From NCBI RefSeq assembly GCF_017305435.1, contig NZ_JAFKIP010000009.1:1-64000 (forward strand): a stretch of DNA of 64,000 nucleotides. The letters run 5' to 3'. Origin of the DNA: Microbacterium sp. GTDB lineage: Bacteria; Actinomycetota; Actinomycetes; Actinomycetales; Microbacteriaceae. Positions 13,736 to 38,592 of this stretch are shown here, in pieces (positions within the stretch are counted from its first letter, which is position 1; every line of letters begins with the position of its first letter). The position numbers and the translations under genes are program-made. The notes under the pieces were generated by a model. That model saw nothing but the letters and a program-made list of their open reading frames with translations, was not told the origin of the DNA and searched no databases.

Positions 13736-13811
13736 CCTGATCCTCCCGGCGTACCTAATGGTCGCAAGGAGCACCGACACATGCTGTCGGTTTCGCCGGG
13801 AGGAGGTCAGG
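13736..13811 (+). promoter_or_regulatory. Structured leader of the ArdC-like gene sequestering the ribosome site
   Basis: CCTGA-TCCTCCCGGCG (13736-13751) is complementary to CGCCGGGAGGA-gg-TCAGG (13794-13811), an outer stem of 16 pairs with a 2-nt bulge that buries the GGAGGAGG ribosome site just before the ATG at 13813. Inside it, ACCGACA (13773-13779) and TGTCGGT (13785-13791) form a second perfect 7-bp hairpin. A GCGTACCT box (13750-13757) resembles the CGCACCT boxes of other leaders in this element. Further upstream, ACCTGACGGTCGCA (13696-13709) is nearly repeated as ACCTAATGGTCGCA (13753-13766). Confidence 0.65.
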
Positions 13812-13812
13812 G

Positions 13813-14886
13813 ATGGTGACAGGCGAAGAGGTACGAGCGGCGCGCGACGCGAAGCTTGACGAACTGCACGAACGGCTGGCAGGCGCAGTCGAGCGCTTGG
13901 TGTCCGGGGACAACTGGCGGCGCGCGCTTGAGTTCGGGGCACGATTCCGGTCGCGATCATTCGGGAACACGCTGCTGATCTTCGTACAGCATCTCGATGC
14001 TTTCGAGCAGGGCCGTGTGCCGGTGTCTGAGCCGTCGTATGTGGCCGGGTACAAGCAATGGCAGATGCTCGGACGGCAGGTGGAGAGGGGCCAGGCGGGC
14101 TATCAGATTCTCGCGCCGGTCACGGGCCGGTTCGCGTCCTCGACGCCGCAGGATGGCGAGTCGTGGCGCCGGCTCGGCCAGTACGAGAAGCCCAAGCCGG
14201 GCGAGGCGGTGCGTTCCCGCCTGGTTGGCGCGCGGCCGGCCTACGTGTGGGATGTCTCGCAGACAACGGGCGACCCGATTCCCGAGCGGCCGGCGCCGAG
14301 GCTGTTGGAAGGCGAGGCTCCTGCGGGGCTCTGGGATGGCCTGTCTGGACTGATCGAATCCGAGGGCTTCGCCGTGCTGCGGGTGGAGCACGAGGGCATG
14401 ATCCGCGGCGCGAATGGCCTGACCGATTTTCGGGCGCGGACGGTGGCGGTGCGGTCGAACATGGAGCCGGCGGCGCAGGTGAAGACCCTCGCGCACGAGC
14501 TCGCGCATGTGAAGTTGCACGGCCCCGAGAACGCGAACGCGGTGCGGCATCGCGGGATTGGCGAGGTCGAGGCGGAGTCGGTGGCCCTGATGATCGGCGC
14601 CGCTCACGGCATGGACACCAGCTCCTACTCCGTCTCCTACGTCTCCGGTTGGGCTGGCGCGGTGAAGGACAAGGGGCCGGCCGAGGTCGTGCAGGCCACC
14701 GGCGAGCGGGTGCGCAAGGCGGCCGGTGTGATCCTCGATGCTCTGCCGACCGTGCAGATCGGCGCCGGCGACCCGCCCGGTCTTGTACGCGACGCGCAAC
14801 GCCTCGACCGGGCCGAGCGGGGGCCATCCGCCGCGGATCTCGCACGGTCGGCGCGTCCGCCGGAGTCTGCGGTCAGGAGCCTGTGA
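13813..14886 (+). CDS. ArdC-like antirestriction/ssDNA-binding protein with metallopeptidase motif
   Basis: A 357-residue protein. The N-terminal part (about residues 15-140) resembles the ArdC ssDNA-binding domain, including FRSRSFGNTLLI and a later GYQILAPVT segment. The C-terminal part carries a zinc-peptidase motif H228-E-L-A-H232 followed by an EVEAESVA helix, as in ImmA/IrrE-type domains. ArdC proteins shield incoming single-stranded DNA from host restriction during conjugation, which fits first place in a transfer operon. Its stop overlaps the next ATG (TGATG), so it is coupled to the primase-polymerase. A structured leader precedes the start. Confidence 0.8.
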   Translation: MVTGEEVRAARDAKLDELHERLAGAVERLVSGDNWRRALEFGARFRSRSFGNTLLIFVQHLDAFEQGRVPVSEPSYVAGYKQWQMLGRQVERGQAGYQILAPVTGRFASSTPQDGESWRRLGQYEKPKPGEAVRSRLVGARPAYVWDVSQTTGDPIPERPAPRLLEGEAPAGLWDGLSGLIESEGFAVLRVEHEGMIRGANGLTDFRARTVAVRSNMEPAAQVKTLAHELAHVKLHGPENANAVRHRGIGEVEAESVALMIGAAHGMDTSSYSVSYVSGWAGAVKDKGPAEVVQATGERVRKAAGVILDALPTVQIGAGDPPGLVRDAQRLDRAERGPSAADLARSARPPESAVRSL

Positions 14887-15797
14887 TGGACACGGTGGAG
14901 TTATTCGCCTCCGTCTCGGACCTGTCGTTGCCGGAGGCGGCGGCCTGGTTCGCGGCGGTGGGGGTTCCGGTGTTCCCGTGTGTGCCGGACGGGAAGCGCC
15001 CGCTGGTGGAGCACGGCTTCCACGACGCGGCAACCGATGCCGGGCAGGTCGCCGCGTGGTGGCGGCGCTGGCCGACCGCGAACATCGGGGTGCCAACCGG
15101 TGCGGCCTCCGGAGTGGAGGTCGTCGACGTTGACCGGAAGGCGGCCGGTTCCGGCTTCGCGGCGTTCGGTCGCGCCCGGCAGGCCGGTCTCGTGGGCGCG
15201 TGGCTGGCGGTGGTGCGGACCCCTTCGGGCGGGATGCACGCCTACTTCCCGACCGATCCCGACCGCCCGCAGGCGTCCTGGCAGGCGGCTCGCGCGCACG
15301 TGGACTTCCGGGGTGCCGGCGGCTACATCATCGCGCCGCCATCCGTGGTGAATATGCCGGGCGGTCCTCGCCCTCGTGCCCGTTACGAGCTGATCGGCGG
15401 GGCACAGCCCGGTGCGGCTCCCTTGGATGCGATGGCGCTGCGGGACTTCCTCGACCCGCGTCCCCCGCTGGTCGTTCGGCGAAGCATCACGACCCGAGTC
15501 GAGGATGCCGAGCGGCTGGCGGCCTGGGTTTCGGCGCTTGGGGAAGGCGAGCGGAACCGTGGCCTGTTCTGGGCTGCGTGCAGGATGGCGGAGGCCGGCG
15601 CGTCACCTGCCGCCACGCTGGACACGCTGTCTCCGGCGGCCGAGCGCGCGGGCCTGCCTCCGCGCGAGGTCGCCGTGACCATCCGCTCGGCCTACCGCAC
15701 GATCCGCACGGCCCCAACGCGGACGGCTTCTCACGCGCCAGGGCACGACGAAGCGCCGCACCGAGCGGCACGGGTCGACAGTCAGGTGCTGTCGTGA
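14886..15797 (+). CDS. Bifunctional DNA primase/polymerase (Prim-Pol, AEP family)
   Basis: A 303-residue protein. Its N-terminal domain (about 15-200) matches archaeo-eukaryotic primase-polymerases of mobile elements: AAWFAAVGVPVFPCVPDGKRP at the start, GVPTGAASGVEVVDVDR with the catalytic acidic residues, TPSGGMHAYF with the catalytic-site histidine, and VDFRGAGGYIIAPPS. The C-terminal helical part may be a primase-associated domain. It probably primes second-strand synthesis of the transferred DNA. The start ATG at 14886 overlaps the upstream stop, and its own stop overlaps the next GTG, so all three genes are coupled. Confidence 0.85.
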   Translation: MDTVELFASVSDLSLPEAAAWFAAVGVPVFPCVPDGKRPLVEHGFHDAATDAGQVAAWWRRWPTANIGVPTGAASGVEVVDVDRKAAGSGFAAFGRARQAGLVGAWLAVVRTPSGGMHAYFPTDPDRPQASWQAARAHVDFRGAGGYIIAPPSVVNMPGGPRPRARYELIGGAQPGAAPLDAMALRDFLDPRPPLVVRRSITTRVEDAERLAAWVSALGEGERNRGLFWAACRMAEAGASPAATLDTLSPAAERAGLPPREVAVTIRSAYRTIRTAPTRTASHAPGHDEAPHRAARVDSQVLS

Positions 15798-16483
15798 TCC
15801 CCGCGCGTCTGCCGAACGGTCGGCTCGCGGTGAGCACGGCGATCATCGGGACCGTGCTGATCGCTGCGGCCGCATTCTGGCTGTCTTTCACCGCCCTGAC
15901 CGATCTGGCCCGCCGTTCCGGGGTGGACGAGGGGCAGGCGTGGGCGTGGCCCCTGATTGTGGATGGGCTGATCGTCGTGGCGACCGTCGCGGTCGTCGCT
16001 CTCGATGGGCAGCGGGCGGCCTGGTACCCGTGGCTGTTGCTCATGGCGGGAACGGCCGTCTCGGTGACGGCGAACGCGCTGCACGCGACGGTCGCCGCCG
16101 ACGCCGATGTGCCCGCCTTGCTGGCCGCGTGTGTTGCGGCGGTGCCGCCGCTGGTGCTGCTGGCCTCCACCCATCTGACGGTCGTTCTCGTCCGCTCTCA
16201 CCGCATCGTCCCGGAGCCGACCGTCGAGGCGGAGGCCACGGAGGTCCAGGCATCCGCACAGGCCGTCGTTTCCGCGGGTACCGTGCCGGGGCCGGTGGGC
16301 CGGCGAGAGCTCGCGGCCCGCCTGCGTGAGGAGCGCTGGTCGAACAAGTCGATTGCCAGGCATCTGCATGTGGCCCCGTCCACGGTGGGCCGGTGGTTCG
16401 CCAAGACCGAGGCGTTGGGCGCACCTGCCGTGCAGGACACCGCACCCGACCCGCGGGAGACACCGAAGGAGCTGACCGCATGA
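15794..16483 (+). CDS. DUF2637 membrane protein with C-terminal helix-turn-helix
   Basis: A 229-residue protein starting at GTG 15794 inside the preceding stop. Four membrane helices fill residues about 12-135; the GQAWAWPLIVDGLIVVAT segment is typical of DUF2637 proteins found on actinobacterial plasmids and integrative elements. After a linker rich in Glu/Val/Ala, residues about 175-205 (RLREERWSNKSIARHLHVAPSTVGRWF) form a helix-turn-helix. A membrane-bound DNA-binding protein could tether element DNA to the transfer site; that is inference. The stop overlaps the next ATG. Confidence 0.8.
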   Translation: MIPARLPNGRLAVSTAIIGTVLIAAAAFWLSFTALTDLARRSGVDEGQAWAWPLIVDGLIVVATVAVVALDGQRAAWYPWLLLMAGTAVSVTANALHATVAADADVPALLAACVAAVPPLVLLASTHLTVVLVRSHRIVPEPTVEAEATEVQASAQAVVSAGTVPGPVGRRELAARLREERWSNKSIARHLHVAPSTVGRWFAKTEALGAPAVQDTAPDPRETPKELTA

Positions 16484-16641
16484 ACGACATCGACCCGAGC
16501 CCGGAGACACGACCGGACCGCCCGACCAAGACGGTGCCCGAGGCGGAGGAGGTCTCGGCGCTGGCACGCCACGGCGACCCGTCGCAGACCACGACGACCA
16601 CCTCGAAGAGGGTGGAGAAGGCCAAGCGCGGCATCGTGTGA
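16480..16641 (+). CDS. Small hydrophilic element protein (53 aa)
   Basis: An ATG at 16480 overlapping the preceding stop opens a 53-residue acidic-to-basic protein rich in Asp, Glu, Thr and Pro, with no hydrophobic segment and no recognisable family. Translation coupling and the unbroken frame support it as a real gene. It probably has little fixed structure. Function unknown. Confidence 0.55.
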   Translation: MNDIDPSPETRPDRPTKTVPEAEEVSALARHGDPSQTTTTTSKRVEKAKRGIV

Positions 16642-16878
16642 GTGCGCCCGTCCGAGCTGATGAGCCAGACCACGGCGCGGGTCGCCGGGCGGGGCATCGA
16701 CTTTCAGGCCGAGCTCGCTCGCCGCGCCCGCCGCCTTCCCGGTGAGGTGACCCGCAGGACACGGCGTGGCATCCGCTCGAGTAGTGAGCGGGCTCGCCGG
16801 CTGCCACCGGTCACGGCGTTCGGCCGCCGCGAACAGTCGTCCACCGGGGCGACTCGCTCGGGGATCGGGCTGCGGTGA
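16642..16878 (+). CDS. Small arginine-rich element protein (78 aa)
   Basis: A GTG at 16642 directly follows the previous stop and opens a 78-residue protein with about 20 arginines and repeated ARR/TRR runs, suggesting nucleic-acid binding. No family is recognised. High GC makes arginine-rich spurious frames common, so support comes only from gene order and adjacency. Confidence 0.4.
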   Translation: MRPSELMSQTTARVAGRGIDFQAELARRARRLPGEVTRRTRRGIRSSSERARRLPPVTAFGRREQSSTGATRSGIGLR

Positions 16879-16885
16879 GCTGAGA

Positions 16886-16957
16886 TGCGCACCCCCGGCA
16901 GCACACCGACGTGGGCTGCTGGGGCGTGCGTGCGCACCTTCCCTCCAGGAGGTGCCG
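16886..16957 (+). promoter_or_regulatory. Leader with CGCACCT box and sequestered ribosome site (gene at 16960)
   Basis: TGCGCACCT begins at 16931. GCACCT (16934-16939) pairs with AGGTGC (16950-16955), extended by CC (16941-16942) to GG (16948-16949) across a one-base bulge, so the AGGAGGTG ribosome site is inside a hairpin. Upstream, TGCGCAC at 16886 begins a region that can fold back on the second TGCGCA through CCCC/GGGG and GCAGC/GCTGC pairs, so alternative folds are possible. Confidence 0.55.
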
Positions 16958-16959
16958 CA

Positions 16960-17805
16960 ATGCGCGAACAGGACACCGGGCTCCGGCAGGGGTTCGAGGA
17001 TTCGGAGGGGCTGCGCGCCCTGTTGAACCGGCTGTACGAGGCTGGCCGGGGAGCCTGGCGGGAGGACCCGGAGGCGGCGGCATTGATGCGGCACGCGGCC
17101 GAGAAGTATGCCGCGCTGGCGAAGAAGCATGGTCTGGACCCGTGGGAGGCGGCGGGGGCCGCATTCGACGCGATGCGCAACGCTTCCGTCAGGAATGCCG
17201 ACGACCCGTGGGCGATGGTCACCCACGCCGTCCGGATCACCTGCGTTGCCGAGGAACGCGGCCAAGGGCTGCTGTGCTCGACCGGCCGCGCCCGCCGACC
17301 GCACTACTCGGTGTTCCACGATGCCGAGCGGTTCTCCGACCGGGAGAACGTGCTGACCGACTACCACCCCGCCTTCCAGACACCGCCGCCCGACGACGAA
17401 CCCGAGCCAGATGCCGGAGGGCAGACGACCAGTGTCGGATCGGCCGTCGAGGACACGATCGCCCTGTTCACGCTGCTGGGCTGGCCGGCAGCCACCGCCC
17501 GCGCCGGGATCGAGTATGTCTGCGCCCGCCTGGCCGAGGCGTCCTCTCGTGCGGCGGCGTTCGAGGCACTGCGCCGCGACTACCACGCCCGCGTTCTGCT
17601 GGGCGTCCCCGGTCCGTCGTGGGTGGCGATGCTGCGCACGGTGCTCGGCAACCCCGATCCGGATCTCGCTCATATCGGCGCCGGCCGTGGCGTGCTGCTG
17701 CGTCTGCTGATCGGCGAACCGCTGCGCGCTCTCCTGGCCGACGACCGTCTCCTGGCGGAGGTGGTTCTTTCCACACCCGGAAGCCCGGGGAGGCGTCGTG
17801 AGTAG
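16960..17805 (+). CDS. Conserved-looking element protein of unknown function (281 aa)
   Basis: Reading from the ATG at 16960, which follows an AGGAGGT ribosome site, gives 281 residues. It is soluble, mostly helical and acidic, with LRALLNRLYEAGRGAW near the N terminus, a basic middle (CSTGRARRPHYSVF) and a helical C-terminal half ending in a leucine-rich stretch. I recognise no family. An ATG at 16885 is also in frame but would place the leader hairpin inside coding sequence. Its last 8 bp overlap the ParB-like gene, so both are co-translated. Confidence 0.65.
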   Translation: MREQDTGLRQGFEDSEGLRALLNRLYEAGRGAWREDPEAAALMRHAAEKYAALAKKHGLDPWEAAGAAFDAMRNASVRNADDPWAMVTHAVRITCVAEERGQGLLCSTGRARRPHYSVFHDAERFSDRENVLTDYHPAFQTPPPDDEPEPDAGGQTTSVGSAVEDTIALFTLLGWPAATARAGIEYVCARLAEASSRAAAFEALRRDYHARVLLGVPGPSWVAMLRTVLGNPDPDLAHIGAGRGVLLRLLIGEPLRALLADDRLLAEVVLSTPGSPGRRRE

Positions 17806-18865
17806 CGGCCTCGGGCACATCGAGCTGGAACGCACTCTCGATTCGATCAACGTCGGGCGCCGTCACCGGCAGGACCTGGGCGACATCGACGCCCTCGCGA
17901 CGTCCATTGATGAGAACGGAGTCTTGCAGATCATCACGATCGACCCGGACGGCAATCTCGTGTGCGGGCAGCGCCGCTACGCCGCGATGCGCAAGCTCGG
18001 CTGGAAGACGACCGATGTGTGGGTGCGGCCCGGGATCACCGACCGGCTCGGAGAGCTGCTGGCCGAGCAGGACGACAACGCGCTGCACAAGCCGCTCACC
18101 CTCACCGAATCCGCCGCCCTCTACCGCGAATACAAGGCGCTGCTGGCTGAGGACGCCACCAGGAGGCAGGAATCGACCCGCTTCGCCGCCGGCGGCCAGA
18201 ACCCTAGAGCGAACGGTGGGGCCACCGTGGCCCCACCGTGGAACGAGCCGGCGGGGAAGAGCCGCGAGCAGGCTGCCCTCATGGTCACCGGCCGCAACTC
18301 CTACACGAGCCTGGAACGCATCGGCGAGCTGCAGCGCCTCGCCGCCGACGACACCCAGCCCGCCACCGTCCGGGAGCGCGCCGCCGCCGAACTGGAAGGC
18401 ATCGACGCAGGCGGGTCGATCACCGCCGCCCACCAGCGCACCCGTATGGAACGGTCCCTCGCCGAGCTCGACGAGCTCGCCGCCGACCTCTCCGCACCCG
18501 ACGCGATCCGCGCTCGTGCCGCGCAGGACGCGACCGCGTTGCGGGCTGCGGACACGCAGATGCGAGCGGCGGACCTGGAACGCCTCGCCGCCGACGCGCT
18601 GGCCCGGATACGCGGGAGCAAGAAGCGCGGCAAGAGCACCCGTCCGGCCGCAATCCCGATCTTGCCGGGAACGATGACGCTGCGGGCATTCGTGCTCACC
18701 TGGGATGAGCTGGCCGGATGGTGGGAGCGCGCCGACCCGGCAGAGGTCGGCCCGGCACTGACCGAGGAGCAATGGGAACGGTTCGCCGCGACCGTGGCCG
18801 GTACGGTCGCGTTCGCCGAGGCGGCCGACGCCGCACGCCGACAGGGCGAACTCCGTAGCGCCTGA
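17798..18865 (+). CDS. ParB/Srx N-terminal domain protein
   Basis: A 355-residue protein. Residues about 10-90 form a ParB-type nuclease/CTPase fold: INVGRRHRQDLGDIDALATSIDENGVLQ, then VCGQRRYAAMRKLGW, the C-box-like G-Q-R-R-Y. A basic, glutamate-rich helical part follows (about 110-290) with an Arg/Lys cluster KKRGKSTR, and the C terminus is acidic and tryptophan-rich. It may act in partition or maintenance of the excised element. No ParA gene is adjacent, so transcriptional or transfer-related roles are also possible. Its start GTG overlaps the upstream gene. Confidence 0.75.
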   Translation: MSSGLGHIELERTLDSINVGRRHRQDLGDIDALATSIDENGVLQIITIDPDGNLVCGQRRYAAMRKLGWKTTDVWVRPGITDRLGELLAEQDDNALHKPLTLTESAALYREYKALLAEDATRRQESTRFAAGGQNPRANGGATVAPPWNEPAGKSREQAALMVTGRNSYTSLERIGELQRLAADDTQPATVRERAAAELEGIDAGGSITAAHQRTRMERSLAELDELAADLSAPDAIRARAAQDATALRAADTQMRAADLERLAADALARIRGSKKRGKSTRPAAIPILPGTMTLRAFVLTWDELAGWWERADPAEVGPALTEEQWERFAATVAGTVAFAEAADAARRQGELRSA

Positions 18866-18884
18866 CCCGCGGCTGGTCTCGCGT

Positions 18885-18930
18885 CGCGCACCTTCCTGGC
18901 GAGATTCGTTCGCCCACTCTGGAAGGCATC
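18885..18930 (+). promoter_or_regulatory. Leader with CGCACCT box and sequestered ribosome site (gene at 18935)
   Basis: CGCGCACCTTCC is followed by a fold in which CCTTCC (18891-18896) pairs with the ribosome site GGAAGG (18921-18926) and GGCGA (18898-18902) pairs with TCGCC (18910-18914) in an inner hairpin with a 7-nt loop. This is the outer-stem plus inner-hairpin plan seen at other leaders of the element. Confidence 0.55.
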
Positions 18931-18934
18931 CCCC

Positions 18935-19624
18935 GTGATGGACCCTGCCGCCGACCGTCGCCGTCGCCGCCTGCTCTTCGCCGCCATCGCCGGCGGTCTC
19001 GCCCTGCTCCTCCTTGTCGGCCTCGGCATGTACGGCCTGCTGCGGGGCCCGGCCACCAATGGGCCCGACCCGGAAGAATCGGCCTCACCTGCCGCCGCGA
19101 CGCCCGCCCCATCGGCGGCCGCGCCGAGCTCGCCCGAGCCGATCCCGGCCCTATCCGACCCGGAGGGGTTCGCGCGGCAGGTCGCGCAGGCGCTGTTCAC
19201 CTGGGACACGAGTTCGGGTCTGGAACCATCGGACTACGCGCAGGTGCTCGCGGACGCGGCCGACACCACGGAGGCCAACGCACTCGCGACCGACGTGCGC
19301 ACCTACCTCCCCAGCCCCGAGGCGTGGGCGCAACTGCGGACCTATCAGACCCGGCAACGGCTCACCATCGACAGCGTCGTGGTACCGGAGGCGTGGGCGA
19401 CCGCCGAGGCGCAGGCCGCGCCGGGCCAGATTCCACGCGGCGCCACCGCCTACACGATCGAGGGCACACGGCACAGGACCGGCATCTGGAGCACGGAGCC
19501 CGTCGAAGCGTCGCGGCCGGTGTCGTTCACCGTGTTCATCGTCTGCACGCCACCCGCACCCGAGTTCCGCGCGGACATGTGCCGGCTGCTGCGACTATCC
19601 GCACTCGCCAACCCCCTCCGCTGA
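18935..19624 (+). CDS. Single-pass membrane protein of the transfer apparatus
   Basis: A 229-residue protein (228 from the ATG at 18938): a short basic N terminus (RRRRR), one membrane helix (about residues 14-37), a Pro/Ala/Ser-rich linker (about 45-75) and a soluble extracytoplasmic domain. The arrangement is that of VirB8/TcpC-type assembly factors, whose soluble domain adopts an NTF2-like fold, but I see no diagnostic motif, so this is by topology and position only. The next gene encodes the cell-wall hydrolase of the same apparatus, 12 bp downstream. Confidence 0.6.
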   Translation: MMDPAADRRRRRLLFAAIAGGLALLLLVGLGMYGLLRGPATNGPDPEESASPAAATPAPSAAAPSSPEPIPALSDPEGFARQVAQALFTWDTSSGLEPSDYAQVLADAADTTEANALATDVRTYLPSPEAWAQLRTYQTRQRLTIDSVVVPEAWATAEAQAAPGQIPRGATAYTIEGTRHRTGIWSTEPVEASRPVSFTVFIVCTPPAPEFRADMCRLLRLSALANPLR

Positions 19625-19636
19625 GCCAGGGTCGTC

Positions 19637-20830
19637 ATGGTGAAGAAACTGCTCGCGCTCGCCGCCGCCCTGCTGTGCTTCGGCCCCTCGGCCGGGCTGA
19701 TCGGCGTCGGGGTACTGATGAACCCGGCCGCCACCGCTTCCTGCCTTCCTGGCTCGCTCATCGTTGGCCCGATCCCGGACTCGTTGACCGCGACCACCAA
19801 AGACGGCACGACGATCACGCTGAACAAAGTCCAGCTCACCCACGCGGCCACGATCATCACGGTCGGCGGCCAGACCGCCGGCATCGGCCGCTCCGGTGTG
19901 GTCGTCGCGCTCATGGCCGGCCTCACCGAGACGAGCTTGCGGATGCTCGCCAACACCGGCTCCTACCCCGAGTCCGCGAACTACCCCAACGACGGCAACG
20001 GATCGGACCATGACTCGTTGGGCTTGTTCCAGATGCGGCCGGCCTCGAGCTGGGGCACCGTCGCCGAGCTCATGGACCCGAACTATCAGGCCCGCGCGTT
20101 CTACGGCGGACAGACCGGCCCGAACTACCCCTCACCGCGGGGCCTGCTGGACATCCCCGGCTGGCAGCAGATGGACCCCGGCGAAGCTGCCCAGGCCGTC
20201 GAGGTATCGGCCTACCCGGACAGATACCAGAACTACCAGCCCGTCGCCGAGGCCATCCTGACCACTCTCACCCACCCTGCCGCCAGCGGCAGCAGCGGCA
20301 GCAGCGACGGCAACACCGCACCGCTGGTCGTGCCGGAGACCCGCCGCATCGTCTTTCCACTGCCGGAAGGCACCTGGGTGCGCACCGACCCATTCGGGTG
20401 GCGCACCGACCCGATCAACGGGGAACGGGCCTTCCACTCCGGCAGTGACTTCGCCGCCCCGGACGGCACCCCCATCTATGCGATCGCGGACGGCGTCGTG
20501 GTCCGCGCCGACTACAGCGACTCCGGCGGCGGCGTGATCGTCATCGAGCACACCGTCCAAGGTCAGCGCGTCGCCTCTTACTACATCCATATGTGGCAGA
20601 CCGGCATCCATGTAGCGGTCGGCGAGACGGTCAGCGCCGGACAGCACATCGGCGACGTCGGCTCCTCCGGCCACTCGACCGGGCCGCACCTCCACGTAGA
20701 GATCCATCCTGGCGGCGCGAACGAGCCCGCCGTCGACGCCGACGCCTGGCTCACCGAACACGGCGCCGAACGCATCCAGGCCGGCGACACCGCCCCGGCC
20801 GCCTGCACCCTGGCAGGAGGTTCCCACTGA
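19637..20830 (+). CDS. Bifunctional transglycosylase-like / M23 peptidase cell-wall hydrolase
   Basis: A 397-residue exported protein with an N-terminal membrane/signal helix (residues 4-30). The first domain (about 70-205) contains ALMAGLTETSLRML and DHDSLGLFQMRP, resembling lysozyme-like lytic transglycosylase folds with a catalytic glutamate candidate in LTETS. After a Ser/Gly linker, the second domain is an M23 peptidase: HSGSDFAAP holds the first zinc His and Asp, and GPHLHVEIHPGG the H-x-H. Such two-domain enzymes open peptidoglycan for conjugative DNA transfer in Gram-positive bacteria. Its stop overlaps the next ATG. Confidence 0.88.
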   Translation: MVKKLLALAAALLCFGPSAGLIGVGVLMNPAATASCLPGSLIVGPIPDSLTATTKDGTTITLNKVQLTHAATIITVGGQTAGIGRSGVVVALMAGLTETSLRMLANTGSYPESANYPNDGNGSDHDSLGLFQMRPASSWGTVAELMDPNYQARAFYGGQTGPNYPSPRGLLDIPGWQQMDPGEAAQAVEVSAYPDRYQNYQPVAEAILTTLTHPAASGSSGSSDGNTAPLVVPETRRIVFPLPEGTWVRTDPFGWRTDPINGERAFHSGSDFAAPDGTPIYAIADGVVVRADYSDSGGGVIVIEHTVQGQRVASYYIHMWQTGIHVAVGETVSAGQHIGDVGSSGHSTGPHLHVEIHPGGANEPAVDADAWLTEHGAERIQAGDTAPAACTLAGGSH

Positions 20831-21096
20831 TGGACGTGTTCCCCAACTTCGGCGGCGTCGGCGGCTCCGGCGAGCTGCGCTCCATCGTCGGCGCGCTGCT
20901 GATGTTCGTCCTCATCATCGCTGTGCTCATGCTCATCGTCTGCGCGATCGTGTGGGCGGTCGCCTCCGCACATGGCAACTACCAAGCCGCCACGAAAGCC
21001 CGTACCGGCCTCTGGGTCGCCGTCGGCGCCGCAGCGCTGGCCGGTGCCGGGGTGGCCTGGCTCAACTTCCTCCTCGACGTCGGCACCCAGCTTTAG
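20830..21096 (+). CDS. DUF6112-like small membrane protein, copy 1
   Basis: An 88-residue protein from the ATG at 20830 that overlaps the previous stop. Two membrane helices (about 20-45 and 62-85) are separated by a short charged loop, and the N terminus holds PNFGGVGGSGELRSIVGALL. The VirB2-like two-helix layout suggests a pilin-like or channel subunit. A second related protein follows (21165), sharing ELRSIVGA/QLRTIVGA and a GAA...A-x-V-x-x-x-N-F pattern near the end, pointing to ancient duplication. Confidence 0.75.
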   Translation: MDVFPNFGGVGGSGELRSIVGALLMFVLIIAVLMLIVCAIVWAVASAHGNYQAATKARTGLWVAVGAAALAGAGVAWLNFLLDVGTQL

Positions 21097-21117
21097 AACG
21101 ATGCGCGGAGTCGTCGG

Positions 21118-21160: not shown

Positions 21161-21164
21161 AACC

Positions 21165-21464: not shown

Positions 21465-21474
21465 AGCCGGACCG

Positions 21475-31008: not shown

Positions 31009-31370
31009 GCCTGCTCTTCCTGGCTGTGGTGGTGGCGAGGCGTGCCACCGAGGGAGTGCTCGGCCTGGAAGATCGCGTCCGAGACGAGCTGGGAGGCGTG
31101 CTCATTCTCCAGCCGGTAGAACACCCTCTGGCCCTCCTGTCGGGTCGCGACGATCCGCGCCAGGCGCAGCTTCGCCAGATGCTGCGAGACTGCGGCCGGA
31201 GTCTTTTCGACGGTTTCGGCGAGCTGGTTTACGGGCAGTTCTCCCGCCGCGCGCAACGCGAGGACAATCCGTACGCGCGTCGCGTCCGCGAGCATGGCGA
31301 AGACCTCGACGGCCAGCTCCACGAACTGACTGTCCGGATCAAGCCCGCATACTCGCTTATCTGCATCCAT
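31005..31370 (-). CDS. ArsR/SmtB-family metal-sensing repressor
   Basis: A 121-residue winged-helix protein with FAMLADATRVRIVLALRAAGE, the HTH KTPAAVSQHLAKLRLARIV and a His-rich C terminus (PRHHHSQEEQA). The CGLDPD near the N terminus and the terminal histidines are candidate metal ligands, as in Zn/Cd/Co-sensing SmtB-type proteins. It directly precedes the CDF exporter gene, so release of DNA on metal binding should induce export. No convincing 12-2-12 operator is seen in the short upstream region. Confidence 0.88.
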   Translation of the reverse strand: MDADKRVCGLDPDSQFVELAVEVFAMLADATRVRIVLALRAAGELPVNQLAETVEKTPAAVSQHLAKLRLARIVATRQEGQRVFYRLENEHASQLVSDAIFQAEHSLGGTPRHHHSQEEQA

Positions 31371-31491: not shown

Positions 31492-31655
31492 GGCCCACGC
31501 ACCTCCTGACATGGGCCAATGCGACGCGCACCTCCACCAACGAACTCACGGCAGTTGGGACAGGCCGTCAGTCCTCACTGCCGGCTGGGGGCGCCCGGCG
31601 CACCTCCTGGCTGGACGGCTCTACTGCCGTCCACTCGCACCGAGCCAGGAGGACA
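31492..31655 (+). promoter_or_regulatory. Extended leader with three CGCACCTCC boxes and perfect ribosome-site stem
   Basis: Three boxes CGCACCTCC lie at about 31499, 31527 and 31599. In the last, CCTCCTGGCT (31603-31612) is perfectly complementary to AGCCAGGAGG (31643-31652), which contains the ribosome site for the ATG at 31660. Between them GGACGGC (31613-31619) and GCCGTCC (31626-31632) make a perfect 7-bp hairpin. The first box sits in the loop of GGCCCA (31492-31497)/TGGGCC (31512-31517). This is the clearest copy of the leader architecture in the element. The rest of 31371-31491 contains nothing I can name. Confidence 0.7.
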
Positions 31656-31659
31656 TGCC

Positions 31660-34659
31660 ATGTCTGCGACGACCGTCAGCCCGCCCCCGAACCAGATGCG
31701 CCCGCCGGGCAGGACATGGCGCCGTGCCGCGTCGGTTCTGATTGCGGTGCTCGTCGCGGTCAGCTCCCTCGTCTTCGGCGCCCTGCCCGCCCATGCGGGC
31801 AGCCACGGTGTCGGCTACGACGAGGGGCTGGGGTTCCTCGGCGCGTACAGCACCAACGTCGATGGACGGCAGGCGTACAGCATCGACCTCGGCGCCAACG
31901 CCCGTTCGGGCCGACCTCGGGACCGCAGACCGTGACCTCGCTGGATTCCCTCTCCCGCCAGGACCTCGCGCAGCTCAACTATGTCCTCGACCGCTGGGGG
32001 CAGTCGGGAGATCCGAACCTCACCTCCGCGGTCGCCCTGTTCGTGTGGTCGGTGGCCGATCCGGGCGTCTACAACAGCCACGGCATGTCGGGAGACGACT
32101 ACTACGTGGGCCGCGCCCCGGCCGGCGCACGCGGCACGATCCTCGGCAACCTCGCGGTGATGCGGCAGGAAGCCTCCGTGAACGCAGTCACCGACCCTTC
32201 GCTGTCGGTCGCGCTGTCGATGGCCGACCAGTACGCGGGGACGCTGACCGTGCAGGCCAACCCGACGTCCTTGCAGGGCACCGCGACTCTCACCGGCGGC
32301 GTGTTCACCGGCGGCGGCTCCTCCCGCACCCTGGGCGCGGGCCAGTACGCCGTGACCGGCACCCCGCAGGACGGCACAGCCTCGTACCGCATCGAAGCGT
32401 CCATGAGCGTCGCCGCCGCCGGATACGGCGCGGCGGTCGACCTCTACACGACGCCGGACTCGCAGCGGACCATCGCCGCGGTCGCCGGCACCTCGACCGG
32501 CCTCTCAGCGCAGGCGCAGACCCCGATGATCGACCTGGACTTCCAGCCCGAGGCGACCACGCAGGTCTCCTCCCGATTCGTGGTGGAGGGCGACGCCTTC
32601 GCGGACGAGCTGGCCGTCACGGTGACCAAAGGCACCTGGATCAAGATCGGCGGGAGCCCGGTCCCGATCACCGCGACCGGAACCATGTACGGGCCGTTCG
32701 ATGAGCAGCCGGCCGAGGCCGACGCCCCGCCGACCGGCGCGCCGGTCGCGGGGACCGAGACGGTCACGCTGACCGGTGCGGGCTCCTACATTTCGCCCGG
32801 CACGATCACCGCCCCGGAGTCGGGCTTCTACACCTGGGTGTGGGCGATCGACAAGAACGCCCAGGGCGAGACGGCCAAGTACCTGACCGATTCGTTCACC
32901 GACCGGTTCGGGCGGGTCGCGGAGACCAGCGTCGTGCCGTTCCAGCCCGAAGCGGTCTCCAAGGCCGACCAGCACCTGGCCGTGCCGGGCGAGACGCTGA
33001 CCGACACGATCACGGTCACAAGCTCGAACGGGGCGTGGCTCAAGCGCGACGGGGCGTTCATCCCTGTCGTGTTCGAGGGCACCGCCTATCAGGTGCCCGG
33101 AACCCTCCCACCCGGCCGCGGTGCGGCCGTGCCATCCGGAGCGGTGCCGCTGGGCGCCGTCACGATCACGGCGGACGGCCGGGCGTCTACACCTCGCCCG
33201 AAGTCCTCGCCCCGACTGGCGGGTTCGTGACCTGGGTGTGGCAGATGCACAGGGCCACGCAGCCGGCGGATGTGCGCGACTACCTCGCCGCCGACTGGAG
33301 CGACCAGTACGGCGTCCCGGTCGAGACGAGCTCTGTGCGGTGGCCGCTCACGACGACCTCGCTGATGCGCGAGTACAACGTCCACGACGGCGGGCGCGCG
33401 TTCGACACCGTGACCGTCACCGGGTTCCCCGCGAACTACGGCGACTTCGCCGGCGACGGGTACTGGCAGGCCGACGCACCCGAGCTCACCCACACCGTCT
33501 ACGGGCCGTTCACGGATGATGCGGTGCTCACCGACACCCTCGACCTGTCCGGCGCGCCGGTGCTGGCGACGATCACTACGCCCGCCCGGAACGGGGTCTA
33601 CCGGCTCGGCTACACCGACGCCGACCGGATCACCCCGACCGAGCCCGGCTACTACGTCCTCGTCACCACCTTCCCCGGCGACGACCGGGTGCAGCCGTAC
33701 CGCTCCTCGCCGGCGGACGTGCTCGAACGGTTCTTCGTCCCGCCGACCCCGGAGACCCCGCTGCCGGTCACGGTCATCGCGCAGGCGACCCCGGCCGCGC
33801 TGACCGGGCAGCCGTTCGCGGACACCGCGCTCGTGCAGGGCACGATCCCCGGCGGCGCGACCCTGGTGTTCCGCGCCTACGGCCCCGAACCCGCCGACAC
33901 GACGCCGGTGTGCGAGACGCCCTTCTATGAGTCCGATCCGACCCCGGTCACCCAGGCCGGCGTGTACTCCTCCGGGCAGACGAGGACCGGCCAGGCCGGC
34001 ACCGTCTACTGGATCGAGACCCTGTACGGCGAGGACGGCACCGTGCTCGCACAGGGCGCCTGCGGCGCGCCCGGTGAGACGACCGTCGTCACCGAGCAAC
34101 CAACCGCGCTGACCCTCACCACCGTCGCCACGACGGCGGTCACCCTGGGCGGGCCCGCCCATGACACGGCGACCGTCACCGGGACCGTGCCCGAAGGGAC
34201 GACGCTCGAGTTCGAGGCCTACCGGCAGGACGGCGACACGGCGACCTGCACCGCTGACGAGCTGGCGTTCACCTCCGATGCTCACTCTGTCACTGGACCT
34301 GGCGAGTACACCTCCGAGGATGTCGAGTTCGAGAAGGCCGGCACCTACTACTGGATCGAGACGCTGCACGGCCCGGATGGCACCGTGATCCACCGCGGCC
34401 TGTGTGGGGCGCCGAACGAGACCACCGCGGTCACGGCAGTCCCGGCCCCGACGCCGACTCCGGAGCTGCCTTCGACGCTGGCGTTCACCGGAACGGGTGA
34501 CTGGCTGCTGCCGTTCGGCATCGGCGGCGGCATCCCCTCCTCGCCGGGGTGCTGACCCTCTGGTTCGGCCGCCGGCTGGCGATCTACCGGGAACGCAACG
34601 GCTACGTCCGCGAGGAGGACCAGGCGTTCCACGACCTCCTCAACAACGAGGAGGACTGA
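31660..34659 (+). pseudogene. Large surface-anchored repeat protein, three frameshifts
   Basis: Joined over three frames it encodes about 1000 residues: signal peptide (RAASVLIAVLVAVSSLVFG...AHA), a thioester-like head domain in which the usual Cys of Y-C-I-D is Ser, then at least five beta-type repeats with a recurring GxYxS and Y-W-I-E-T-L or F-x-T-W-V-W pattern, and a C-terminal LAFTG sortase-type signal, membrane helix and charged tail. Breaks lie near 31906, 33178 and 34536. Each is repaired by adding one C to a C-run, so sequencing error and true decay are both possible. Its place in a transfer operon suggests mating-pair adhesion. Confidence 0.75.
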
Positions 34660-34758: not shown

Positions 34759-34795
34759 GCGCACCTCTCCTCTGCCGCACGGAAGGAACAGCCGC
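34759..34795 (+). promoter_or_regulatory. Leader with CGCACCT box and sequestered ribosome site (gene at 34799)
   Basis: GCGCACCTCTCC begins at 34760. CCT (34764-34766) plus TCC (34768-34770), with one bulged C, pair with the ribosome site GGAAGG (34781-34786). The loop TCTGCCGCAC has no inner hairpin. ATG lies at 34799. Confidence 0.5.
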
Positions 34796-34798
34796 ATC

Positions 34799-35353
34799 AT
34801 GAACCGCCCCCGCTACAAGCGCACCACTGACGAGGACGGCACCCCCGTGGCCTCGGAGGTGCCGGTCGTCCTGCCGCACGTCGTCATGGGCGTCGCTGAG
34901 GACGGCACGATGACCGTCACCATCGACGGCTTACCCCACCAGCCGCCGCCGTTCGCCCCGCCCTGGCGGCGGGATGCGTTCGCGCAGGTGCTCGACGAGA
35001 TCACCGGCCGGCGCCGCTCACCCGTGCGGGTCGAGGTCCGGGAGGCGGACGGCACCGTGTTCACCGACATCGTCACGCCCGGCCGGCGGCGACGCCCCGA
35101 GCCAGATCCCACGCTGATGCCGATGGCGGAGGAGCGCGCGACTGGCATTCCCGAGCTCGTCATGCTGCACGGCGAGGGGTTCGTTCCTGGGGAGGACGTG
35201 GCGGTCGCCATCGTCGTCGCCCACGGCGACGCCGCCCCGGACGGCACGATGCGCGGCCTGCTCACCGCGGAACAAGCCGCGACCAGCCCGACCCGCGAGG
35301 TCATCCTGCTCGGCCGGGTCTCCGGGACGCTGGCGATCGGGCATCCCGAGTGA
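34799..35353 (+). CDS. Element protein of unknown function before the coupling protein
   Basis: A 184-residue soluble protein from ATG 34799 after GGAAGGA. The first half is basic and proline-rich (PHQPPPFAPPWRRD), the centre contains a strand-rich VRVEVREADGTVFTD, and the last 50 residues read as a small beta domain with ELVMLHGEGFVPGEDVAVAIVV. No family recognised. Its stop overlaps the GTG start of the TraG/VirD4-like gene, so it is probably an accessory factor for substrate coupling. Confidence 0.65.
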   Translation: MNRPRYKRTTDEDGTPVASEVPVVLPHVVMGVAEDGTMTVTIDGLPHQPPPFAPPWRRDAFAQVLDEITGRRRSPVRVEVREADGTVFTDIVTPGRRRRPEPDPTLMPMAEERATGIPELVMLHGEGFVPGEDVAVAIVVAHGDAAPDGTMRGLLTAEQAATSPTREVILLGRVSGTLAIGHPE

Positions 35354-37122
35354 GCACCCCGCGCCCGGCCGGGCCGCTCGGAGACGAGCTGACCAACCTC
35401 GGCATCGGTCTCCTGATCGCGGCCGCGATCCTCGCCGGCATCCTCCGCGGCGCTGGGTCGCTCGCCGCCTGGATCACCGGCACGACCCAACCCGCCGGCG
35501 GCATCGAAGCCGGCCTCGGCGTCCTGCTCCACGCCGGCGACCCGGCAGTGCCACTCGCCGCGCCCGGGCTGAACGCCGCCGCCTACTGGATCACCGCCGC
35601 CGTCCTCATCGTCGGAACCGGCGCGCTCGGCTGGTGGGTGTGGGGCGCCGTCCATGAGCACGGCCGTCAGGTGAAGGCCGACCCATACCGCATCGCCGGG
35701 ATCGCCACCCGGACCGAGGTCGCCGCGGCGGCGTCGGAGAAGGCGCTGCTGCGCCGCGCGCAACATCTGCGGCCCACACTCGACAAGCCGACCCCGAAGG
35801 ACGTCGGATACTGGATCGGCACCTCCCGCGGGCACGGGGTCTGGGCGTCGGTCGAGGACTCGATACTCCTGCTCGGCCCGCCCCGCAGCGGCAAAGGTGT
35901 CGGCATCGTCATCAACATGATCCTCGACGCACCAGGCGCGGTCGTGACCACCAGCACCCGGCCCGACAACCTCACCGCGACCCTCCGCGCCCGGCAGAAG
36001 ATCGGACCCGTCGCCGTCTTCGACCCACAACACCTGGCCGAAGGCGTACCCGCAGGGCTGCGCTGGTCACCCATCCGCGGATGCGAAGACCCGCTGACCG
36101 CGATGATCCGCGCGGCCGGCCTCGCTGCCGGCACCGGGCTCTCAGCAGGCGGGGTCGAGGGCGGCGGGTTCTGGGAAGGCAAGACCAGGAGCGCCCTTCA
36201 AGCCCTGCTCCACGCCGCAGCACTCGACCACCGCGGCCCAGCCGAGCTATTCCGGTGGACCCTCGACCCCTCCGTCGCCGCCGAGGCCGTGGCGATCCTC
36301 ACCGCGAACCCCCACGCCGCAGTCGGGTGGGCCGACTCGCTGCAGGCGATGATCGAGTCCGACCCCAGGACCCGCGACTCCATCTGGCAAGGCGTGTCGC
36401 TCGCGCTCGCCGCACTCGCGGACCCCCGCGTGCTCGACGCGGTGAGCCCACGCGAGGGCGAGGACTTCGACCCCGAAGCGTTCCTGCGAGCCAAGGGAAC
36501 CCTGTACCTGCTGGCGACCGGAGCGGGAGCGAACAACTCCGCCGCGCTGGTCGCCGCGTTCGTGGAAGACCTCGTGGAAGCCGCCCGGCACATCGCCGCA
36601 ACCAGCCCTAGTGCCAGGCTCGACCCGCCGCTCCTCCTCGCATTGGATGAGGTCGGGAACCTCGCACCCTTGCCGTCGTTGCCGACGCTGATGTCCGAGG
36701 GAGGGGGCACCGGCATCACCACGATGCCTGTGCTCCAATCGCTCGCCCAAGCTAGGGAGAAGTGGTCGGAGAACGCCGCGGGAGCGATCTGGGACGCCTC
36801 AATCGTCAAGGTCATCCTGGGCGGCGCCTCGAACTCCAAGGACCTCCACGACCTCACCACTCTCATCGGCGAGCGCGATGAGCTGACCGACTCCACCACA
36901 GTCGGCGACCACGGCTCCCGCTCCGCACAGCGCTCGATCCGCCGGGTGCCGATCATGCCGCCCGACGCCATCCGAACCCTCCCGTTCGGCACCGCGCTCG
37001 TGCTGCTGCGCTCCGCCGCGCCCATTGTGACCCGTCTGAGGGCATGGACGGCCCGCCCGGACGCCGCGCTACTCCGCGCCAACCGTGCGGACATCGAGGC
37101 CCTGTTGGAGCGCCGACCGTAG
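35350..37122 (+). CDS. TraG/VirD4-type coupling ATPase
   Basis: A 590-residue protein from GTG 35350. Two N-terminal membrane helices (about 15-35 and 75-95) are followed by an ATPase domain: Walker A GPPRSGKG (about 178), a TTSTRPDN segment typical of TraG/VirD4, an all-helical insertion, and Walker B LLLALDEVGN (about 433) followed by LPTLMSEGGG and a sensor-like region. Coupling proteins bring the relaxase-DNA complex to the type IV channel. Together with the VirB4-like and SCO6880 proteins, this makes the element a type IV (not FtsK/TraB-type) transfer system. Confidence 0.9.
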   Translation: MSTPRPAGPLGDELTNLGIGLLIAAAILAGILRGAGSLAAWITGTTQPAGGIEAGLGVLLHAGDPAVPLAAPGLNAAAYWITAAVLIVGTGALGWWVWGAVHEHGRQVKADPYRIAGIATRTEVAAAASEKALLRRAQHLRPTLDKPTPKDVGYWIGTSRGHGVWASVEDSILLLGPPRSGKGVGIVINMILDAPGAVVTTSTRPDNLTATLRARQKIGPVAVFDPQHLAEGVPAGLRWSPIRGCEDPLTAMIRAAGLAAGTGLSAGGVEGGGFWEGKTRSALQALLHAAALDHRGPAELFRWTLDPSVAAEAVAILTANPHAAVGWADSLQAMIESDPRTRDSIWQGVSLALAALADPRVLDAVSPREGEDFDPEAFLRAKGTLYLLATGAGANNSAALVAAFVEDLVEAARHIAATSPSARLDPPLLLALDEVGNLAPLPSLPTLMSEGGGTGITTMPVLQSLAQAREKWSENAAGAIWDASIVKVILGGASNSKDLHDLTTLIGERDELTDSTTVGDHGSRSAQRSIRRVPIMPPDAIRTLPFGTALVLLRSAAPIVTRLRAWTARPDAALLRANRADIEALLERRP

Positions 37123-37130: not shown

Positions 37131-37195
37131 GGACGCACCTGTCTGGCAGGGCGACTTCACCGTGAGGCCGCCGTCGATGTCAGAAGGGGACAGTC
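37131..37195 (+). promoter_or_regulatory. Leader with CGCACCT box (SSB gene)
   Basis: ACGCACCTGTC starts at 37133. CTGTC (37139-37143) can pair with GACAG (37189-37193), just beyond the AAGGGG ribosome site, enclosing about 45 nt that contain smaller pairings (CGAC/GTCG). The start ATG is at 37198. Box conserved; fold less certain than in the best copies. Confidence 0.4.
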
Positions 37196-37197
37196 CG

Positions 37198-37645: not shown

Positions 37646-38218
37646 GTGAGTGATTACGACTCCGTCCCCGAGCCGGACGAGCCCGAACCGGGCGACGAAC
37701 CTGAGGACGCGGAAGGGTCACTGCTGCCCGAACCGCCTCACCCGATCAACTGGAACCTGCTCAACGCCGAGGAGGCCGAGGCCGAGTGGCTGGAGCTCAA
37801 CAAGTGGGTCAACTGGCTGCGCCGAACCTACGGTCTCCCGGCTTCCGTGATCCCGCCGTTCTGGCACCGGCATCCCGAGGTCGTGTGGGAACTCAGCGCG
37901 CTGCACCTGCACTGGCTGTGCGCCTACGACCCCGAGCAGAATGGCTCGGCCCCGCTGGGCTGGCATCGCGATTTCGCTGACGCCCGCCAACGGCTGCGCG
38001 ATTGGGTCGCCGCCTGCGGCACCCGCCTGGATCGCGATCGCCCCACCCGACAGACCGCGTGGCCGGGCGAGGACGCCACCCAGCCCGTTGAGGACCGGAT
38101 CATCGCCAACCGCGACGAGGACTTCGTGCAGTTCGTCCTCGATGATGTCGCCGCACGCCGCCAGGCTGAGGACGAGTTCTACGCGGGCCTCGATCCGCGG
38201 ACCGGCGAGCTGTCATGA
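37646..38218 (+). CDS. DUF4913 protein
   Basis: A 190-residue protein from GTG 37646, with AAGGAG ahead. The first 35 residues are very acidic (repeated PEPDEPEPGDEP); the core (about 45-140) has WLELNKWVNWLRRTYGLPASVIPPFWHRHPEVVWELSALHLHW, the W/H-rich block characteristic of DUF4913 proteins found on actinobacterial plasmids and integrative elements. Function unknown. Its stop overlaps the next ATG (ATGA). Confidence 0.8.
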   Translation: MSDYDSVPEPDEPEPGDEPEDAEGSLLPEPPHPINWNLLNAEEAEAEWLELNKWVNWLRRTYGLPASVIPPFWHRHPEVVWELSALHLHWLCAYDPEQNGSAPLGWHRDFADARQRLRDWVAACGTRLDRDRPTRQTAWPGEDATQPVEDRIIANRDEDFVQFVLDDVAARRQAEDEFYAGLDPRTGELS

Positions 38219-38424
38219 CCCGACAGCGGCGTAGTCGGCGGGCGCGAGAACGTGACTACCGAGTCGAGGCGGTGCCCCGGCAGTTGCCCGAGTTGCACAA
38301 GCTCGCGCAGGTCTTTCTCGGCATGGCCGTCGCACGGGCGGAACTCAACGGCAGACGCGGTGAAGAGCGATCGCCGGACGAACTCAACGAATCCGAGCCC
38401 GAAGGCGGTAGCGAGGTAGAATGA
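38215..38424 (+). CDS. Small basic-to-acidic element protein (69 aa)
   Basis: An ATG at 38215 overlapping the DUF4913 stop opens a 69-residue protein. The N terminus is strongly basic (RQRRSRRARERDYR), the middle is helical (LPELHKLAQVFLGMAVARAEL), and the end is acidic. No family recognised. Coupling to DUF4913 supports it as real; a DNA-binding or chaperone-like partner role is possible. Confidence 0.6.
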   Translation: MTRQRRSRRARERDYRVEAVPRQLPELHKLAQVFLGMAVARAELNGRRGEERSPDELNESEPEGGSEVE

Positions 38425-38444
38425 AAGCACATCGCCACAGTCCG

Positions 38445-38592
38445 TATAAGCGGGCTGGGTGCGCGGTCCTGTTGCCTTCGTGGCTTACCTGCGGCCCTTC
38501 CGGCTGCTGGTCGTGTTTCCGATTACGAGTCGCACTGCATGACGCTTCGCCGTCGTGCTGGCTCCCACCTTTGGTGAGAGGAAACACGACTC
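38445..38592 (+). promoter_or_regulatory. Promoter-like box and structured leader of the serine recombinase
   Basis: TATAAG (38445-38450) is a plausible -10 box. GTCGTGTTTCC (38510-38520) is perfectly complementary over 11 bp to GGAAACACGAC (38580-38590), directly before the ATG at 38593. Inside, GACG/CGTC (38541-38554) and CACC/GGTG (38566-38576) can form further hairpins. The weak ribosome site GAGAGGAAA lies within the outer stem, so recombinase synthesis is probably kept low. Confidence 0.55.

Follow-up and report, generated by a model that had tools for sequence, protein, structure and literature searches.

Short repeats at translation starts have been known in actinobacteriophages since 2011, with no function given in the passages that describe them: start-associated sequences (SAS) and extended SAS (ESAS), known from mycobacteriophages of Cluster K and Microbacterium phages of Cluster EF (PMC3203893, PMC7302621). 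For ESAS repeats, the authors report in the relevant passage little support for mRNA hairpins between them (PMC3203893). Cluster EC Microbacterium phages are described as carrying an asymmetric 18-bp motif, TAGaCTCTaGGTgTaAgC, which lies 21–30 bp upstream of starts and upstream of the ribosome-binding site (RBS) in 12 copies oriented alike (PMC7302621). Cluster A mycobacteriophages contain stoperators, which are many asymmetric sites oriented with transcription (PMC9283540, PMC4351075). The present analysis concerns a box, GYGYACCT, that leads genes of a conjugative element with a serine recombinase in Microbacterium sp. (assembly GCF_017305435.1, contig NZ_JAFKIP010000009.1, positions 1 to 64,000; this 64,000-nucleotide (nt) stretch is the window). 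All genes of this element are on the + strand. The box is conserved in related elements, biased to the strand of the genes, placed before starts and absent from host genes, and the bases that follow it pair better with their own leader's Shine-Dalgarno (SD) region than with that of a swapped leader.

The original prediction, made from the letters of the window, was that a CGCACCT box recurs before element genes, can mask their ribosome sites and represents a shared RNA switch or protein site. The boxes exist, at 13749 (GCGTACCT), 16933, 18887, 21119, 24369, 31498, 31527, 31599, 34760 and 37134, and all are on the + strand, as are the genes. Eight starts are box-led (13813, 16960, 18935 or 18938, 21165, 24416, 31660, 34799 and 37198), which confirms the recurrence of the leader across the element. 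The first base of the eight-nucleotide box lies 28–65 nt from the start codon in these eight leaders, in line with the 25–65 nt proposed. This spacing does not extend to the boxes at 31498 and 31527, which precede the start at 31660 by 162 and 133 nt and have no start within 65 nt. A copy in coding sequence at 19299 had been pointed out and is present, but others had been overlooked; the + strand coding copies are at 16420, 19298, 20685 and 21319 in the element and at 29153 and 30119 in its cargo. The word CGCACCT occurs 22 times in the window (14.1 expected, standard deviation 3.6; 1 of 100 shuffles reached 22), and the whole genome contains, on both strands, 518 copies of GCGCACCT and 409 of the reversed word. 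The word count in the window is a mild enrichment; the placement of the boxes is not chance.

Related elements were collected from 298 related genomes, 104 of which contain SCO6880 homologues. The first set consists of 80 loci of up to 20 kb each, of which 68 are close (L031–L098, including L036 and L054 from the same genome) and 12 are distant (L099–L110). Among the distant loci, L100 is a fragment with 73% identity and no neighbouring genes, L099 has 51% identity and the rest have 25–45%. A second set of 80 loci from titled records overlaps the first in 17 cases. The other 63 loci form the hold-out and are related to the first set, so that they are not independent of it in descent.

Non-coding 8-mers were ranked by enrichment with no word chosen beforehand and with the expectation taken from coding frequency. 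In the window and the 68 close loci, the top word is GCGCACCT (167 copies, 14.1 expected, 3 antisense) and the second is GTGCACCT (55 copies, 1.2 expected, 5 antisense). In the hold-out, GTGCACCT is top (94 copies, 1.3 expected, 4 antisense) and GCGCACCT is fifth (122 copies, 13.5 expected, 14 antisense). The ratio of sense to antisense GYGYACCT is 8:0 in the window, 235:10 in the close loci, 63 of which contain at least one, and 2:1 in the distant loci. The hold-out contains 238 sense and 22 antisense copies, with at least one in 58 of the 63 loci. The close loci and the hold-out together contain 473 sense boxes in the non-coding parts of 131 loci. The 53 hold-out loci with at least two sense boxes carry 23 genus names, some of which are labels of metagenome-assembled genomes (MAGs); examples are Microbacterium, Leucobacter, Agromyces, Demequina, Brachybacterium, Tessaracoccus, Nocardia and Cellulosimicrobium. 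One locus, L115, is from a record titled as an Acidobacteria MAG (UBA2994), and its SCO6880 protein is 88% identical to an actinobacterial one; this is possibly a binning error. The SCO6880 protein has no match in phages at an E-value of 1e-5, and the compact orf281 leader, used as an exact pattern, has 0 matches in viral contigs.

Genes with GYGYACCT or CGYACCT 15–85 nt upstream of the start were counted with a codon-usage gene finder. In the window element, 8 of 22 genes are boxed, or 7 of the 11 that have a 25-nt gap; the eight include a small open reading frame (ORF) at 16480, whose box is the coding copy at 16420, and the adhesin leader is missed. In L036 and L054, 6 of 33 genes are boxed, and in the 68 close loci, these two included, 211 of 1055 (reversed word 12, antisense 11). 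The 12 distant loci contain no boxed gene among 156 (reversed word 2, antisense 1). In 400 kb of the host chromosome, where a frequency equal to that in the element had been named as grounds for dismissing the leader, 5 of 339 genes are boxed, against 4 for the reversed word and 3 for the antisense word. An earlier, cruder gene finder, which gave 2 of 286 host genes and 88 of 1158 genes in the close loci, was discarded, since it marked just 2 of 17 window element genes as boxed.

Expectation maximisation without any given word, on 563 dereplicated of 833 upstream regions of 130 nt each, finds the motif GYGYACCTGnYnGnYRA. GG(G) stands upstream of the motif at a near-fixed gap. The motif precedes ssb in 38/39 cases in the first set and 31/32 in the hold-out, ardC in 13/16 and 13/13, the second DUF6112 gene in 34/43 and 42/51 (reverse-strand control in the hold-out, 12), orf281 in 33/45 and 35/42 (control 2), orf229 in 15/31 and 30/38 (control 1), orf268 in 25/37 and 25/49 (control 0), and parB in 19/34 and 19/43 (control 1). 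In the same order, the counts are 10/49 and 4/50 for the first DUF6112 gene, 6/33 and 1/61 for SCO6880, 5/34 and 2/39 for tcp, 3/39 and 0/59 for virB4, 2/14 and 5/17 for orf184, 2/25 and 0/31 for primase, 2/2 and 2/11 for adhesin, and 1/4 and 0/4 for recombinase. The motif is scarce before spdB (1/36 and 0/35, control 5), orf190 (1/23 and 1/14), M23 (0/33 and 1/35) and trbL (0/26 and 0/51). Nine loci (L049, L050, L052, L054–L057, L062 and L063) have boxes in front of ssb and the second DUF6112 gene, and in most cases of orf268 and ardC as well, but show none before orf281 and orf229. GG starts at −10 from the box in 58% of 237 distinct non-coding boxes, compared with 19% of 59 coding boxes and a background of 5–12% at −25 to −12; among 208 held-out leaders the share is 54%. 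Most boxes (296 of 351) are 25–69 nt from the chosen start, in a scan limited to 20–109 nt. The gap from the upstream stop codon to the box is broad in the 337 of 419 leaders measured, and coupling to that stop is unsupported.

In many leaders, the box and the next bases are complementary to the SD, with sequences that differ between elements. For example, in leaders of the DUF6112 gene, GAC/GTC, TGT/ACA, TGC/GCA and AGC/GCT are found beside CCT/AGG. At least three complementary post-box bases abut the SD in 11 of 34 DUF6112, 4 of 14 orf229, 3 of 35 ssb, 2 of 26 orf268, 2 of 15 ardC and none of 22 orf281 leaders. In a swap test, right halves were exchanged between leaders of one gene class and pairing of the ten post-box bases with the SD region was compared. 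Own pairing is stronger in the first set (146 leaders, z −3.7; reached by 0 and 1 of 1000 swaps in two runs) and in the hold-out (98 leaders, z −5.3; 0 of 1000), where a reversed arm gives +1.0 and a complemented arm +0.1. The combined value for 286 leaders is z −6.1. By class, the hold-out result is matched by 0 of 1000 swaps for DUF6112 and for orf229, 40 of 1000 for ssb and 62 of 1000 for orf268. Only the post-box arm is used as a clean test, because a reversed arm of box plus post-box bases also gives z −4.1, probably since the backward box still pairs with GGA; reversal of the post-box arm alone gives z −1.1 in the first set.

Alignments were made for three classes: the second DUF6112 gene, orf229 and ssb. 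The DUF6112 alignment (93 leaders, 57 after dereplication and 56 after L092 was removed by hand) contains a box–SD helix that is 70.8% paired, compared with 34–45% when slid. This helix has 34 double-changed cells, a number reached by 1 of 500 shuffles, and its covariation score is above all 500 shuffles. In the alignment of 55 ssb leaders, the stem scores 0.338, compared with 0.273 when shuffled (7 of 500 reach the score) and at most 0.207 when slid. Leaders also fold better than dinucleotide shuffles, with class means from z −0.75 (orf268) to z −2.19 (DUF6112). In two leaders (L180:15789–15851 and L088:14832–14900), the post-box bases also match, by eye, a second stretch off the SD, and alternative hairpins are possible.

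In the window itself, the complementarities that the original prediction named are present (Table 1). In minimum-energy folds, pairing between box and SD is seen in four of the eight leaders (16932, 18886, 21118 and 31598), and in a fifth (34759) the SD is covered by the bases directly after the box. Fold z-scores against shuffles range from −4.06 (31598) to +0.98 (24368). In the ssb leaders of the window and some relatives, the SD lies in the loop of a small TGTC/GACA hairpin, the 5' arm of which can alternatively pair with post-box bases, giving two exclusive folds. The ardC leader contains a 12-codon upstream ORF (13781–13819) that is preceded by an SD-like AAGGAG and whose stop overlaps the ardC start (ATGGTGA). 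A search of 13400–26800 for promoters of the sigma-70 type finds none.

The box also has the look of an independent recognition site, at the RNA or the DNA level, because it is kept beyond the needs of SD pairing and because an unpaired GG(G) stands at near-fixed spacing from it. Among 51 orf281 leaders with AGGAGG, eight have an SD flank that is not complementary to the box, and seven of these eight keep GYGYACCT. Many ssb leaders likewise retain GYGYACCT beside a non-complementary SD flank. At positions 0 and 14, the box variants of different leaders within an element tend to agree more than expected (z 5.8 and 4.1, 83 elements), and such agreement is absent at the unconserved positions 9, 13, 16 and 17. 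Together, these results give weak grounds for a trans-acting factor that recognises the box and that is most simply encoded by the element, because host genes lack the box.

Two genes are candidates for this factor by position only, orf281 and an AraC-family gene. The orf281 protein of the window has no NCBIfam match. A role of orf281 as a regulator is unsupported, with sub-threshold Pfam matches only (TetR_C_27 in 5 of 37 members, best E-value 0.018) and PDB matches at E-values of 0.15 or worse. The AraC-family protein has tblastn matches in 4 first-set loci and in 19 of the 80 titled loci, many of them partial or weak and taken without regard to position. The box is complementary at 7 of 8 positions to AGGUGCGG of the 16S rRNA tail, which we take to be helix 45; the tail is that of a related genome (G137), the assembly of the host itself having given no 16S match. 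Pairing with the 16S 3' end is nevertheless unsupported as a function, and the 16 nt upstream of the box add nothing to it (−22.32, compared with −22.55 when shuffled).

With somewhat less than even confidence, we favour an element-specific, start-associated leader in which the box has two roles: it forms one side of an RNA helix that covers the SD, and it is bound by a factor that thereby opens the SD. The leader consists of GG(G), a near-fixed gap, GYGYACCTGnYnGnYRA, a variable and often hairpin-forming stretch, and the SD. Given transcription through the leader, ACCU of the box and the next bases would pair in the mRNA with the SD or with adjacent bases, and translation would be held down in the cell. 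A trans-acting factor, probably encoded by the element, would bind GG(G)-N7-GYGYACCU. As the masking strand is part of this site, binding would draw it away from the SD. The box-led genes would then be switched on together. A wider and more doubtful possibility is that the box defines a translational regulon of the whole conjugative element, in which one element-made factor recognises the shared box in several mRNA leaders (eight in the window) and so removes the masking strand from each ribosome site, the transfer programme is switched on post-transcriptionally, and the leaders have been carried by the element into more than 20 actinobacterial genera.

Several results weigh against this model. 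Neither the box nor the post-box bases cover the SD in three of the eight window folds (13749, 24368 and 37133); in the ardC fold, box–SD pairing is absent. RNAalifold finds no consensus pair in any of the three alignments, and a single conserved RNA fold is unsupported. In the DUF6112 alignment, pairs changed on two sides number 4 (495 of 500 shuffles are as high) and pair types number 19 (80 of 500), and the corresponding counts for ssb are matched by 163 and 88 of 500 shuffles. The pair-counting tool treats these two measures as robust to relatedness, which, as it warns, can alone lift scores above all shuffles. The orf229 helix shows no excess (305 of 500 shuffles), and a slide of one column is equally good. 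A signal in every class is unsupported: the first-set swap test is null for two of six classes, ardC and orf281, and shows little for ssb (168 of 1000). Predicted SD accessibility is not lower with a box (0.313, 145 starts) than without one (0.329, 273 starts; p 0.29), and box and last 24 nt pair with a probability of 0.563, compared with 0.513 in chimeric leaders (172 leaders).

The evidence for a factor site also has its limits. Leaders were selected by the box, and its conservation among them partly reflects this selection. The agreement of box variants at positions 0 and 14 weakens to z 1.9 and 2.0 in 34 elements and to 1.4 and 2.1 in 19 elements, and the conserved positions 10 and 15 show no agreement. 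Pairing of GG(G) or other upstream bases with the box, the SD or each other gives z −0.8 to +1.7 in 286 leaders, and GG(G) would fit a DNA or polymerase signal equally well. Activation as the direction of control is a choice made here, not a result. Of the shared RNA switch or protein site first proposed, the element-specific leader signal and the preference for own over swapped pairing are supported, and a common fold, a signal in all classes and lower SD accessibility are not. Covariation, whose absence was to refute it, gives a mixed picture: the swap tests and the scores of two alignments exceed shuffles, and the relatedness-robust counts and the orf229 alignment do not. The structure results fit a variable helix, perhaps weak or dynamic, better than a rigid conserved fold. 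The analysis still leans to RNA because the reversed and complemented control arms are subject to the same relatedness as the true arms.

The most serious rival, which we hold to be unlikely, is a site in DNA, where a repressor encoded by the element would bind the asymmetric box and block transcription at many places, as at stoperators. Stoperators are DNA-binding sites of the phage repressor that end transcription elongation and are not known to be tied to an SD. The asymmetry of the box, its orientation with transcription, its position in short intergenic gaps and its restriction to these elements all agree with such a site, as does the nearly constant distance, about one helical turn, of GG(G) upstream of GYG. 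SD pairing alone does not explain the box, and the relatedness-robust RNA covariation counts are not above shuffles. In addition, a gene of the AraC family, whose members usually bind asymmetric DNA sites, lies directly upstream of ardC in the window. However, a DNA site would not be expected to show the better pairing of post-box bases with their own SD region, for which the control arms are near zero. The box is also tied to particular starts, and none is found before trbL despite a 40-nt gap there in the window.

An RNA leader of opposite sign, in which the factor stabilises the SD-covering helix and the box is a shared translational repressor site, rests on RNA evidence identical to that for activation. 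Conjugative elements are usually kept silent, which favours repression, but the same bases would be needed for factor binding and for SD pairing, and we regard this version as quite improbable. A signal for transcription pausing or antitermination (ops-like), with GG(G), then G-Y-G near the spacing of an elemental pause and then a hairpin, appears very improbable. It would account for the excess of GG at −10 in non-coding boxes and held-out leaders and for the frequent hairpins after the box; the elemental pause consensus is G−11 G−10, Y−1 G+1, and the GG register is 1–2 nt off it. Neither ACCT nor the link to the SD is explained by pausing, and host genes are without the site. Scarcely any probability is given to a constitutive effect in cis, in which the leader needs no factor and serves to keep each SD shut on read-through transcripts or to adjust its rate. 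Pairing with the own SD region would suit it, as would the fact that no factor was found, but conserved GYGY, GG(G) and the agreement of box variants within an element would be left unexplained. 

The element encodes ArdC-like, ParB-like and SSB-like proteins, a primase, an M23 peptidase, two DUF6112 proteins, a TrbL/SCO6881-like protein, an SCO6880 family protein, a VirB4-like ATPase and a TraG/VirD4-like coupling protein. A tRNA-Lys gene is located at 40251–40325, beside the serine recombinase. Given their overlap, the 3' end of the recombinase ORF may be the attachment site; a second copy of the tRNA end is not found in the 64-kb window. Between the VirB4-like gene and the adhesin, a cargo block (26793–31370) resembles arsenic or metal resistance genes. 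Its ORFs are named from reading of the sequence only, as an oxidoreductase, an aquaporin-like, an ArsR-like and a short phosphatase-like ORF and a cation diffusion facilitator. The adhesin-like gene (31660–34555) runs through three successive frames (31660–31935, to 33230 and to 34555), and the two frame changes are either decay or assembly errors. The host draft genome, 3.5 Mb long and split into 10 contigs, has three further SCO6880-type loci, whose proteins are 89, 72 and 31% identical.

Table 1. Box leaders and selected genes of the conjugative element, in window coordinates.
Feature	Position	Strand	Remarks
AraC-family regulator	12522–13640	+	directly upstream of ardC; candidate regulator by position only
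ardC-like gene leader	13749–13812	+	box GCGTACCT 13749–13756; hairpin 13773–13791; SD GGGAGGAGGT
orf281 leader	16932–16959	+	box GCGCACCT 16932–16939; compact hairpin GCACCT..AGGTGC covers SD AGGAGG
orf281, conserved protein without known family	16960–17805	+	most compact leader; candidate regulator by position only
orf229 leader	18886–18934	+	box GCGCACCT 18886–18893; outer helix CCTTCC..GGAAGG, inner hairpin
Two DUF6112 genes	20830–21096 and 21165–21434 (20830–21434)	+	
Second DUF6112 gene leader	21118–21164	+	box GCGCACCT 21118–21125; helix CCTGAC..GTC(A)AGG, inner hairpin
TrbL/SCO6881-like membrane protein	21475–22878	+	matches below curated cut-offs; box absent upstream
SCO6880 family protein	22882–24345	+	query for finding related elements
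orf268 leader	24368–24415	+	box GCGCACCT 24368–24375; window fold without box–SD pairing
VirB4-like conjugal transfer ATPase	25219–26709	+	matches below curated cut-offs
Two extra boxes before adhesin-like gene	31498–31504 and 31526–31533	+	162 and 133 nt before the start at 31660
Adhesin-like gene leader	31598–31659	+	box GCGCACCT 31598–31605; CCTCCTGGCT..AGCCAGGAGG covers SD; inner hairpin
orf184 leader	34759–34798	+	box GCGCACCT 34759–34766; post-box bases cover SD in fold; fold z +0.94
TraG/VirD4-like coupling protein	35350–37122	+	
SSB-like gene leader	37133–37197	+	box ACGCACCT 37133–37140; SD in loop of TGTC..GACA hairpin 37178–37192
Serine recombinase of element	38593–40314	+	ORF overlaps opposite-strand tRNA-Lys gene

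The original prediction gave no named RNA family with a plan like this, and Rfam 15 agrees: at the gathering threshold, the window and six relatives give no match beyond one tRNA each, and positions 13600–38600 give none at E-values up to 1. In the literature on DUF6112, SCO6880, conjugative-element leaders and RNA motifs, covered as titles and abstract starts with most subscription papers outside this scope, no description of a box leader is found. Leaders that sequester the SD, such as riboswitches, thermometers and attenuators, have a 5' strand complementary to it. Here, in contrast, the masking strand would lie in a near-invariant, multi-copy box common to unrelated genes of one element. 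The box resembles stoperators in being asymmetric, oriented with transcription and placed in intergenic gaps, and differs from them in being tied to the SD. The 18-bp motif of Cluster EC phages is similarly asymmetric, upstream of the RBS and of starts, and present in copies oriented alike, but its sequence is unlike GYGYACCT, and the passages that describe it mention no SD-complementary strand.

Of the kinds described so far, the start-associated sequences of actinobacteriophages come closest, and some Microbacterium phages carry motifs of this sort that differ in sequence from the box. In the passages that describe them, SAS are short asymmetric repeats of unassigned function, present in many copies mostly in one orientation at translation starts and rare or absent in the host chromosome. 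The box shares the single orientation, the many copies and the absence from host genes. In the same passages, SAS sit at the SD (GGGATAGGAGCCC, GGGAAAGGACCCC), whereas the box lies upstream and is complementary to it. The carriers also differ, being phages for SAS and a conjugative element for the box. The new features are this carrier and the SD-complementary strand. The conjugative-element case links start-associated repeats to the ribosome site, which makes their function directly testable, and a trans-acting factor, if it exists, would be a single control point for the transfer of these elements.

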